From Acidimicrobiia bacterium (GTDB lineage: Bacteria > Actinomycetota > Acidimicrobiia > IMCC26256 > Chersky-534): a DNA stretch of 39,837 bases. The notes below the pieces were generated by a model. It saw nothing but the letters and a program-made list of their open reading frames with translations. It was not told the origin of the DNA and searched no databases. The position numbers and the translations under genes were made by a program. The stretch's first letter is position 1; each line of letters opens with the position of its first letter. This document shows positions 9,140-12,219 of the stretch, piece after piece. The stretch covers positions 1-39,837 of the forward strand of contig JADGOM010000027.1 in assembly GCA_017882925.1 (NCBI GenBank), in the 5' to 3' direction.

Positions 9140-9712
9140 TCAGAACGCGGCCCCTCCGGTACCGGCGTTCGGCTTGCTCGTGCTGGGGGTCTTGGGGGTC
9201 GAGCCGGGGGTCTTCGGGGTCGAAGCAGAGCTCGCCTTCGCCGTCACCATCGTGTACCACTTGCCCCACTTGTCGGTCACGTTTCCCTTCACCTGACCGG
9301 GTGCCTTGTCCTTGGCGAACCAGTAGAGCGGCTTGCCCGCGTAGGTGATCTGCAGGGCGCCGCCGGCGGCGGGTGTGGTTCCCAGCTTCGATGCGTCCAC
9401 GCCGGGTCCGGCGGTCGGCGACGTGACCCCTTGGGGCAACAGGACCGGCGGCCAGACCTTCAAGCACGCGGCCGTACACGCCTTCTTGCTCGGCTTCAAC
9501 GCGTAGACGGTGGTGCCGCTCACGAGAATCGTGCCATGCTTCGGGGTCGTCGCCGTCGAGACGACGCTCGCGGTGGTCGGGCTGGTCGCAGCCGCGGCGA
9601 TGCTCGGGGCGAGCGCCAGTGCGGACAGCCCGCCAACGGCCAAGGCAACTCCAGCGATGCGCCCGAGTGAAGTTCGCCAACTCGATCCTCGCTGTCCACC
9701 GGTTCGCTTCAT
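9140..9712 (-). CDS. secreted protein with Yx(FWY)xxD-type repeats
   Basis: The 190-residue exported protein has an Arg-rich N-terminus and hydrophobic signal (about residues 1-42, ending in Ala-rich sequence). Two copies of the secreted-repeat family unit follow: a degenerate one with VYALKPSKKACTAACLKVWPPVL, where the aromatic and Asp positions are lost but a CxxxC and WPP remain, and a good one with LYWFAKDKAPGQ. The C-terminus is a low-complexity Thr/Pro/Ser/Lys tail (about 158-190). There is no lipobox Cys at the signal end. The ATG at 9712 is supported by GAGGAGG eight bases upstream. It is the first gene of an operon read from an ECF-type promoter at 9776-9751. Confidence 0.88.
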   Translation of the reverse strand: MKRTGGQRGSSWRTSLGRIAGVALAVGGLSALALAPSIAAAATSPTTASVVSTATTPKHGTILVSGTTVYALKPSKKACTAACLKVWPPVLLPQGVTSPTAGPGVDASKLGTTPAAGGALQITYAGKPLYWFAKDKAPGQVKGNVTDKWGKWYTMVTAKASSASTPKTPGSTPKTPSTSKPNAGTGGAAF

Positions 9713-9750
9713 GTCGTGAGCCTCCTCGTTGACGCGGGGTTTAGGGGACG

Positions 9751-9776
9751 TACGGAGAATGGCGCCGAACGGATTG
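9751..9776 (-). promoter_or_regulatory. ECF-sigma promoter of the secreted protein / desaturase / doxX operon
   Basis: On the - strand CAATCC (9776-9771) is followed by 16 bases and CGTA (9754-9751). The divergent promoter of the sigma gene has the same two hexa/tetramers and the same spacing. The pattern resembles the promoters reported for mycobacterial SigK (CCATCC with a CGA-type -10). The predicted start near 9744 gives a leader of about 30 bases containing the GAGGAGG ribosome binding site. Confidence 0.75.
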
Positions 9777-9988
9777 CATCGAGAATTCGTCGATCTGAGA
9801 TCTCGTCGAGAAGCCGGGCCCGGACTCCGGCCGCAGGAGCGACGGTCCCAACGCCTCCCGAACCGAACGCGGCAGCGTCGAGCGCGAGAAGCGGCGTGCG
9901 CATAGATGTCTTCCTCGGGGCCCGAAGGTCGGGTACCTCGGTTCTACGGTCCGGCGCGCCGGAGGGATTGCACGGTCGAGATGGGATC

Positions 9989-10014
9989 CAATCCCCGAGT
10001 GGGGCGAGGACGTA
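9989..10014 (+). promoter_or_regulatory. ECF-sigma promoter of the sigma/anti-sigma operon (autoregulatory)
   Basis: CAATCC (9989-9994), 16 bases, then CGTA (10011-10014). This is identical in both elements and spacing to the promoter of the divergent operon. The ATG of the sigma gene lies eight bases after CGTA, so the transcript is probably leaderless. Identity of the two sites argues that this sigma factor reads its own promoter and that of the divergent genes. Confidence 0.75.
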
Positions 10015-10022
10015 GTACTGGC

Positions 10023-10583
10023 ATGTGGTCGGTGTCGGATGATGCGCTGGTTGCCGGTCTCGCCGCGGGCGACGAGGATGCGGCGTCGGCATTCGTGCAG
10101 CGTTTCCAGCGTCGGGTCTACGGCCTCGCCCGCACGATCGTCGTGGACGACCGCGCCGCGGAGGACGTCGCCCAGGAGGCCTTCGTGCGGGCCTGGCGTC
10201 ACGCGGATGCCTTTGACCACCGGCGCGGAAGCGTGGTCGGCTGGCTGCTCACGATCACCCGCAACCTCGCCATCGACGCGGTCCGGATCCGGCGCCCCCT
10301 GGCATTCGACCCTGCCGTCCTCGTCGGCCTCGACCAGCCGTCCGGGGAACGCGAGCCCCACGAACTCGTCCAGCTGGGCGTCGACACCGAGCGGCTGCGC
10401 GCCGCGCTCGCCCAGCTCCCCGAGGAACAGTGTCGAGCCATCGTGCTCTCGGGCCTGCTCGGTTACACGGCACGCGAGGTCGGGGAAGCCGAGCACATCC
10501 CACTGGGCACGGCGAAGACGCGCATCCGTGCTGCGTTGATTCGGCTACGCGCCGCGCTGGTGAGTGAGGAGACCACCGAATGA
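10023..10583 (+). CDS. ECF sigma factor, SigK-like
   Basis: The 186-residue protein contains sigma-70 region 2 (about residues 20-90, with AEDVAQEAFVRAWR and WLLTITRNLAIDAVR) and region 4 (about 128-180, LPEEQCRAIVLSGLLGYTAREVGE followed by IPLGTAKTRIRAAL), and nothing else. That is the layout of an extracytoplasmic-function sigma factor. The ATG at 10023 is preferred over the in-frame ATG at 9981, because the predicted promoter (9989-10014) lies between them. The last four bases overlap the anti-sigma gene (ATGA). The shared CAATCC-N16-CGTA promoter and the RskA-like partner suggest the SigK/SigL group; the group is inferred. Confidence 0.93.
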   Translation: MWSVSDDALVAGLAAGDEDAASAFVQRFQRRVYGLARTIVVDDRAAEDVAQEAFVRAWRHADAFDHRRGSVVGWLLTITRNLAIDAVRIRRPLAFDPAVLVGLDQPSGEREPHELVQLGVDTERLRAALAQLPEEQCRAIVLSGLLGYTAREVGEAEHIPLGTAKTRIRAALIRLRAALVSEETTE

Positions 10584-11254
10584 GCATCTTCAGTTGCCGC
10601 GAAGTACGAGAGTTGGCGCCCGAGCTGGCGCTCGGGCTGCTCGGCGGCACCGAGCGAGCCGAAGCGATCATGCATGTCGACGAGTGCGCGCGCTGCCAGG
10701 CGCTCGTGCTCGAACTCACCGAGACGGCCGACGCGCTGCCCCTCCTCGCGCCCGAGCTCGAACCGCCCGCAGGCTTCGAGCACCGAGTGCTGTCCCAGAT
10801 CCACTCGAGGCGCCGCTGGAACCGTCGCCGCTTCGTTCCAACCATGGCGGCGGTGGCGGCGGTGGCGGCGGTGGCGATCCTCTCTGTCACCGCCGTGCAC
10901 GTCGTCGAGGCAAACAACTCGTCGTCCACCGTGCCTCGCTCCGCCGCGGCACGTGCACCGGTCGCAGTGGAGATGCGCGACACCGTCGCCGGCGTCTCCG
11001 CCGGTTGGGCATACGTCACCGGGGGGCACTCGGTGGCAGTGACTGTCGACTACGGCGTGTCCAGCGGGCGTTACCACGTGCAACTCACCCGGGCCGATGG
11101 CGGTGCCCAATCGCTGGGAACGATGACAGTCAACGGCAACCGTGGGTCGTGGACCGGTCGCAGTGCCCGGACCATCACGCGCGGCTCGACGCTCGCGTTG
11201 GTCGACGCTGCGGGTCGAGCGGTATGTCACGGCACCGTCACCACCGGCGCGTGA
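10580..11254 (+). CDS. zinc-binding membrane anti-sigma factor, RskA-like
   Basis: The 224-residue protein has an N-terminal anti-sigma zinc-finger domain with H32-x3-C36-x2-C39, one membrane helix (about 87-108, including an AAVAAVAAV stretch encoded by three 9-bp DNA repeats), and an extracytoplasmic domain of about 115 residues. It would hold the sigma factor at the membrane until regulated proteolysis releases it; that mechanism is known for the family and inferred here. It overlaps the sigma gene by four bases, so the two are made together. The exposed domain resembles the RskA C-terminal region (GWAYVTGG, SLGTMTVNGNRGSWTG). Confidence 0.9.
   Translation: MSIFSCREVRELAPELALGLLGGTERAEAIMHVDECARCQALVLELTETADALPLLAPELEPPAGFEHRVLSQIHSRRRWNRRRFVPTMAAVAAVAAVAILSVTAVHVVEANNSSSTVPRSAAARAPVAVEMRDTVAGVSAGWAYVTGGHSVAVTVDYGVSSGRYHVQLTRADGGAQSLGTMTVNGNRGSWTGRSARTITRGSTLALVDAAGRAVCHGTVTTGA
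10846..10872 (+). repeat. three tandem 9-bp repeats (GGCGGCGGT) inside the anti-sigma gene
   Basis: Three exact in-frame copies encode the AAV repeats of the membrane helix. Slippage would change the helix length by three residues without breaking the frame. Confidence 0.8.
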
Positions 11255-11327: not shown

Positions 11328-11828
11328 TTAGACGGGCATGACGACCGGCGGCGGCACGGGACCCGGCAACGCCGGGCCTGGCTCCGGAGTCAGCTCGGCC
11401 AGGAACGCGGTGCGCTCGGCGGCGAAGGCCCGGACGCCCTCGTCGACCTCGGCCGCGAAGCGGTCGACCGAGATGAACAGCGCCATCTGCCCGTGGCGGA
11501 GCGCGTCGAGGATCTCGCCGTCGTCCCGGCAGGCCCAGACCCGGTCGCCGTCGGTGACGACCCGCAGGCCGGCGAGGTCGTCGCCCGCCTCGACCAGGTG
11601 ATGGAGGGCCCGGCGCACCTTCGCGGTGCTGAGCCCGGCGTCGAGGAGGGACGCGATCACCCGGAGCGCGACGAGGTCACGGAACGAGTAGCGGGGCGGG
11701 TCGCCCGCGGGGACGACCAGGCCGACGCGCGACCAGTAGGCGAGCTGGGATGGGGTGCAGACACCGAGCCGGGCGGCCTGGAGCGGGCCGTACGACAGGT
11801 CGATCCGCGTGAGGTCGATCTCGGTCAC
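11328..11828 (-). CDS. MerR-family transcriptional regulator
   Basis: The 166-residue protein has an N-terminal MerR winged-helix domain (about residues 15-75). It includes the typical YWSRVGLVVPAGDPPRYSFRDLVALRVI segment and LLDAGLSTAKVRRALHHL, and is followed by a C-terminal region without the Cys ligands of metal-sensing MerR proteins. The effector is unknown. The GTG at 11828 is chosen because it begins the conserved part and lies 13 bases after the DUF3040 stop; the same frame continues upstream inside the DUF3040 gene. It ends in a Pro-rich tail. It converges on the anti-sigma gene across 73 bases in which I see nothing notable. Confidence 0.85.
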   Translation of the reverse strand: MTEIDLTRIDLSYGPLQAARLGVCTPSQLAYWSRVGLVVPAGDPPRYSFRDLVALRVIASLLDAGLSTAKVRRALHHLVEAGDDLAGLRVVTDGDRVWACRDDGEILDALRHGQMALFISVDRFAAEVDEGVRAFAAERTAFLAELTPEPGPALPGPVPPPVVMPV

Positions 11829-11841
11829 GAGCAGCCGCGAT

Positions 11842-12219
11842 TCAGGTGTCGTCGCGGTGCCACCGCTCGCGGAACCGCTTGCCGAAGTCACCGAAGGCTC
11901 CTCCGAGGCTCCCCGAGCGCAGCGACTGGGTGATGCTGTCCATACCCGCCTTGCCCATCTTGCGCACGTTGCGCTCGATGATCAGGAGACACGCGAGCAT
12001 CGCCAGGAAGCCGACGGCGCCGAGCCACACCGACCGGGTGAAGGTGATGAGCATCCAGGCCAGGCCGGCGATCACCCCGACGAAGGCCCACCGGATGGTC
12101 CGCGCCGCGTGGCGGTAGATGGTGGTCTGCGCGACCTGTTCGGCCAGTGCGGGATCGGTGGCCGTGAGGTTGGCCTCGATCTCCTGCAGGATGCGCTGTT
12201 CGTCCTCGGAAAGCGGCAT
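11842..12219 (-). CDS. DUF3040 membrane protein
   Basis: The 125-residue protein starts MPLSEDEQRILQEIEANL, the hallmark N-terminus of the actinobacterial DUF3040 family, and has two adjacent membrane helices (about residues 43-60 and 64-81). A basic, Gly/Phe-containing cytoplasmic tail (FGDFGKRFRERW) follows. The function of the family is unknown. The ATG at 12219 starts the family motif exactly. The MerR-family gene follows 13 bases downstream, so both are likely on one transcript. Confidence 0.9.
   Translation of the reverse strand: MPLSEDEQRILQEIEANLTATDPALAEQVAQTTIYRHAARTIRWAFVGVIAGLAWMLITFTRSVWLGAVGFLAMLACLLIIERNVRKMGKAGMDSITQSLRSGSLGGAFGDFGKRFRERWHRDDT

Follow-up and report, generated by a model that had tools for sequence, protein, structure and literature searches.

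The divergent locus and its genes

An ECF sigma factor gene and an operon headed by a gene for a secreted protein face away from each other across positions 9713-10022 of the window (the whole stretch of Acidimicrobiia DNA that was analysed, 39,837 nucleotides). This raises the question of whether both sides are controlled by the sigma factor itself. The original prediction, made from the letters alone, proposed that two identical ECF promoters of the form CAATCC-N16-CGTA, facing opposite ways, define an autoregulated module. Based on our observations, we suggest that the intergenic region very probably controls an ECF sigma module that regulates its own expression and would activate a narrow set of targets, namely secreted cupredoxins and Lipoprotein_15 proteins.

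Table 1. Genes and sequence features of the sigma factor module in the window.
Feature	Position	Strand	Basis or remark
DoxX-family membrane protein, 176 aa	7433..7963	-	overlaps the FA_hydroxylase gene
FA_hydroxylase membrane enzyme (sterol-desaturase superfamily), 384 aa	7957..9111	-	
Secreted Lipoprotein_15 (PF03640) protein, 190 aa	9140..9712	-	Pfam
C-terminal tail GTGGAAF codons, Lipoprotein_15 gene	9143..9163	-	G-rich and aromatic type
Ribosome-binding site GAGGAGG, Lipoprotein_15 gene	9721..9727	-	sequence
Predicted proximal ECF promoter, Lipoprotein_15 operon	9751..9776	-	exact CAATCC-N16-CGTA
Predicted divergent ECF promoter, conserved copy	9945..9970	-	exact CAATCC-N16-CGTA
Predicted ECF promoter, sigma gene	9989..10014	+	CAATCC-N16-CGTA, exact match
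ECF sigma factor, 186 aa	10023..10583	+	Pfam Sigma70_r2 and r4_2 (regions 2 and 4)
Membrane anti-sigma factor, 224 aa	10580..11254	+	zf-HC2, Hx3Cx2C, one predicted TM helix
Hx3Cx2C codons in the anti-sigma gene	10673..10696	+	H32, C36, C39

The sigma protein consists almost entirely of regions 2 and 4 (Pfam), and its gene overlaps that of the anti-sigma factor by ATGA at 10580, a pairing that is conserved. The three residues of the anti-sigma zinc motif, which places the protein among the zinc anti-sigma factors (ZAS), are invariant among 38 relatives. In the AlphaFold model four N-terminal helices are followed by a helix that coincides with the predicted membrane span and by a C-terminal beta domain; the beta domain is predicted to be extracytoplasmic and the helices with the zinc motif cytoplasmic. 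A structure search with the beta domain returned only weak matches to Cu,Zn-SOD-like sandwiches (1xtm, E 0.013, TM to target 0.51), which were left out of the evidence.

The Lipoprotein_15 protein matches its Pfam family with 40.7 bits against a gathering score of 24.4. The core of its predicted model has pLDDT above 90, and Y70, C79, C83, W87, D135, G143 and W152 are invariant. Lipoprotein_15 is a family of no known function, and our search of the model against the PDB found no solved-structure fold match, with nothing below E 1 (best E 1.2).

Two further observations concern neighbouring and related genes. A MerR-family regulator gene (11328-11891, minus strand) is convergent with the anti-sigma gene and shows no sign of belonging to the module. 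The same genome also carries a paralogous sigma/anti-sigma pair (locus L086, contig C265), whose sigma protein is about 53% identical.

Copies of the putative promoter motif

Both opposed copies named in the original prediction, 9989-10014 on the plus strand and 9776-9751 on the minus strand, are exact and have equal spacing. The count of two did not hold, as a third exact copy, 9970-9945 on the minus strand, had been overlooked; it stands back to back with the sigma-side copy, in inverted orientation. The three matches in the window compare with 0.01 expected from dinucleotide-preserving shuffles (three were reached in 0 of 100), an estimate that is partly circular because the motif was derived from this same region. 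Independent support for the motif comes instead from its conservation at loci picked by protein alone (see below).

Across the whole 3.4-Mb assembly the exact motif occurs only in these three copies, and the reversed pattern, used as a control, does not occur at all. Relaxing the motif to MAATCY-N15..17-CGTA added a single match in the genome, within another gene. As the assembly is 80% complete, more targets may be absent from it. A search of the window allowing two mismatches was uninformative (11 matches against 17 expected).

The CGTA of the rightward copy ends 8 nt 5' of the sigma ATG, and that of the proximal leftward copy 38 nt before the Lipoprotein_15 ATG. The remaining copy, 9970-9945, is located at -53 relative to the sigma start and 232 nt from the Lipoprotein_15 start; because of this distance, it may be weak, vestigial or serving something else in the window.

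The space between the two leftward copies was also inspected for genes. A remnant cupredoxin gene was sought there by tblastn, which gave no convincing match. A 64-codon ORF (9709-9903, minus strand) has a possible ribosome-binding site and an ATGA overlap with the Lipoprotein_15 gene, and no relatives of it were found. It was not counted as a gene, having no family match (a weak test, as the reference was one base out of frame) and a third-position GC that is not coding-like (again with the reference one base out of frame).

Conservation at sigma factor loci

Sigma homologues were collected by protein search of the order and the class, and their upstream sequences were then read. The strict motif is present upstream of 62 of the 79 distinct homologues and missing from 17. 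When occurrences of [CT][AG]ATC[CT]-Nk-CGTA within 600 bases upstream of 43 loci were tallied for every k from 8 to 25, a spacer of 16 gave 37 matches and each of the other lengths at most 1. The motif is thus conserved upstream of orthologous pairs. This supports, at the level of sequence, what had been proposed from the window: predicted ECF promoters, putative autoregulation and a probable connection of the sigma/anti-sigma pair to the operon for the secreted protein.

Among orthologues with 57% identity or more, most have a copy of the motif on each strand, the divergent one at -39 to -79 from the sigma start. Since 9970-9945 (at -53) fills this conserved position, 9776-9751 is an additional copy, and two leftward copies were not seen in any orthologue examined. 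The divergent partner named in the original prediction, 9776-9751, is an extra proximal copy, and the partner kept in evolution is 9970-9945. At one locus (L078 of genome G041) the sigma orthologue retains its own promoter, while the divergent gene encodes a DUF1800 protein and has no divergent motif; the cupredoxin and Lipoprotein_15 targets of this genome are located on separate contigs.

In 55 of the 62 motif-bearing sigma homologues, 6-12 nt separate CGTA from the first in-frame start codon, compared with 35 of 124 cases in the other two frames. Given the usual distance from a -10 element to the transcription start, the message would begin at the start codon or directly beside it, and the sigma mRNA is therefore predicted to be leaderless. 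Leaderless genes are common in Actinobacteria, where a -10-like signal some 10 bp upstream of the start codon is accepted as their hallmark (PMC3160421).

The region-4 recognition helix reads KTR in all sigma factors with CAATC[CT] promoters that have a residue at that column, and KSR or KGR in five sigma factors from genomes with TGATC promoters; this covariation covers two families only, and common descent may explain it. Together with the fixed spacer and the predicted leaderless start, a -35 shift that tracks one residue of the recognition helix makes the promoter specificity directly testable.

The divergent pair was also scanned as DNA alone, with the pattern TACG-N16-GGATTG-N3..33-CAATCC-N16-CGTA, in 84,980 species genomes. 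It was found in 66 stretches, 48 of them directly adjoined by an ECF sigma homologue, mostly in Actinomycetota, and the gene on the opposite side is mostly Lipoprotein_15 or a cupredoxin. Among the carriers are Streptomyces, Propionibacteriaceae, Georgenia, Cellulomonas, Aeromicrobium and Acidimicrobiia, and a culturable one is Streptomyces antibioticus DSM 40234 (locus L147). The other 18 stretches are scattered and probably due to chance for the most part. The motif can serve as a DNA-level signature that locates the ECF module and its targets from Acidimicrobiia to Streptomyces. Genome G019 contains a second divergent pair with no sigma gene (L128, 7301-8164, minus strand), flanked by a tailed cupredoxin on one side and by an L,D-transpeptidase-like gene on the other; a further cupredoxin with its own motif copy lies just beyond it.

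Targets and extent of the proposed regulon

The gene opposite the sigma factor encodes a secreted cupredoxin (PF13473) in the nearest orthologues and a Lipoprotein_15 protein in others. Targets in the order were counted as exact motifs in sense orientation at most 500 bases upstream of a gene with either domain. This holds for 17 of 71 matches in sigma-bearing genomes, compared with 1 of 79 in sigma-free genomes (p=1.4e-5); nine such targets lie on contigs different from that of the sigma gene. A larger regulon was rejected: once known pairs were removed, the roughly 36 matches in sigma-bearing genomes that do not adjoin any of the three gene types equalled the background rate, defined by the 79 matches in about 40 sigma-free genomes. 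The regulon therefore appears narrow, comprising the sigma operon, secreted cupredoxins and Lipoprotein_15 proteins. A candidate regulator can be assigned to these two exported protein families.

The combination of a secreted protein with a sterol-desaturase-type enzyme and DoxX, which the original prediction did not recognise as a described regulon, is not unique to the window. The Lipoprotein_15-FA_hydroxylase-DoxX operon is also present in other families, again accompanied by related sigma genes. FA_hydroxylase was found in 7 of 395 genomes of the class, all of them sigma-positive (p=4e-8, ignoring kinship), and, in a 397-genome sample of the phylum, in just one genome besides that of the window. 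In five FA_hydroxylase genomes the Lipoprotein_15 gene heading the operon is preceded by TGATC[CT]-N16-CGTA, and the sigma gene of some of these genomes likewise has this variant. As the operon is missing from the other sampled genomes of the order, including that of a congener, it was probably gained laterally with its own promoter, and 9776-9751 probably arrived together with it. Cupredoxins, together with DoxX and an enzyme of the diiron lipid-hydroxylase type, suggest that the output is likely redox or copper handling and remodelling of the membrane at the cell surface.

Proposed mechanism and alternatives

The sequences show where the motif lies, how it is spaced and oriented, that it is conserved and which genes are its targets. 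From this we infer promoter activity, sigma-dependent transcription, positive autoregulation, a release mechanism, a leaderless start and an output, which would fit together as follows. At rest, the sigma factor would be bound by its co-encoded membrane zinc anti-sigma factor, until an envelope signal frees it. RNA polymerase with the sigma factor would then initiate at CAATCC-N16-CGTA. The rightward start at 9989-10014 would yield a leaderless sigma/anti-sigma mRNA, and with it both positive feedback and fresh inhibitor, while leftward starts at 9970-9945 and 9776-9751 would transcribe the Lipoprotein_15-FA_hydroxylase-DoxX operon.

Two copies placed back to back and inverted are also what is seen in many operators, and the motif might accordingly bind a separate transcription factor and not be an ECF promoter at all. 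We consider this hardly credible, as the motif is directional, its spacer is fixed at 16, CGTA keeps its short distance from the sigma start in 55 of 62 homologues, single copies in sense orientation precede unlinked targets, and the -35 part varies with the sigma recognition helix. It is very improbable, too, that the promoters are read by a sigma factor encoded elsewhere, such as the paralogue on C265, which would make this a case of cross-regulation and not of autoregulation. A paralogous sigma gene does exist in the genome, and cross-talk among ECF sigma factors is known; however, the motif follows the lineage of this sigma factor, as the target counts given above illustrate, and both paralogues examined (G000 C265 and G001 C203) have no motif upstream and a different recognition helix.

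A more restricted reading concerns the leftward side only. The sigma-side promoter and 9970-9945 might be the only ones in use, with 9776-9751 a chance or relic sequence, and the orthologue-conserved position of 9970-9945 and the absence of a second leftward copy from all orthologues examined would agree with this. We regard it as improbable, because 9776-9751 is an exact match followed by a leader of normal length (38 nt) and a ribosome-binding site, and because the same operon elsewhere has its own N16 promoter directly upstream.

Comparison with known systems

Autoregulated ECF sigma/anti-sigma modules are well known as a kind, and this one may already be catalogued as a group in the full ECF classification. 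We found no paper tying an ECF sigma factor to this promoter, to PF03640, to this cupredoxin or to the G-x-G-Y/F tail, in a literature search that covered mainly open-access papers.

RpoE of Rhodobacter sphaeroides recognises a -35 element TGATCC, like the TGATC variant (f32) found here, and a -10 element that differs from CGTA; its partner ChrR is cytoplasmic and carries a cupin domain. Unlike ChrR, the anti-sigma factor described here combines a TM helix with a beta domain; the -10 element of the present module is CGTA. The RpoE-ChrR complex (PDB 2q1z) is the best solved-structure match to the sigma factor (E 1.6e-18), and the anti-sigma factor is zinc-binding in both systems.

The original prediction also remarked on a resemblance to SigK promoters. 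SigK is indeed the best NCBIfam match of the sigma protein, but its 129.1 bits fall below the cut-off of 226. The positions equivalent to the SigK cysteines (133 and 183) are both Ala in the window, and neither is Cys in any of the 79 homologues. Among 38 anti-sigma relatives the RskA model of Pfam gave no match, and zf-HC2 was the only Pfam domain in 32. The score, the missing cysteines and the missing RskA domain speak against membership in SigK, although the two cysteines are not strictly required, occurring in 94% of ECF18 and 56% of ECF19 (PMC7509140). The SigK-RskA system of M. tuberculosis, of the ECF18/ECF19 type, has exported-protein targets and is autoregulated via the Rv0449c promoter (PMC7509140). 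It resembles the present module in its adjacent membrane anti-sigma factor and exported targets, but these are MPT70/MPT83 for SigK and cupredoxins and Lipoprotein_15 proteins here.

Canonical autoregulated ECF modules comprise a sigma factor with regions 2 and 4 only, a co-transcribed anti-sigma factor, positive autoregulation and CGT in the -10 element (PMC8103513). The module of the window shares the set of regions, the adjoining anti-sigma gene, the CGT and, as predicted here, the positive autoregulation. It differs in its -35 element, CAATCC without the canonical AAC, in the exact 16-base spacer, in the divergent secreted cupredoxin or Lipoprotein_15 target and in the predicted leaderless sigma mRNA.

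C-terminal tails of the target proteins

Many members of the two target families, which are unrelated to each other, share a low-complexity linker that is followed by C-terminal G-x-[GAS]-[YFW]. Among cupredoxins the tail occurs in 15 of the 18 that have the motif and in 0 of the 39 that lack it (p=4e-11, ignoring shared descent); for Lipoprotein_15 proteins the figures are 29 of 46 and 20 of 48. The motif-positive cupredoxins fall into seven groups on the cupredoxin tree, so they are not one single gene family, but the counts are not independent. C-termini of outer-membrane proteins act as ligands for DegS. By analogy, the shared tail could be a tag read by dedicated envelope machinery, either as a sorting or processing signal or as the ligand of a PDZ-type protease controlling the anti-sigma factor, an idea that we put forward tentatively and hold to be rather unlikely. 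Tailed targets include the Lipoprotein_15 protein of the window (codons 9143-9163) and those of loci L033, L036, L039, L041, L042, L109, L113, L147, L149 and L153, among others.
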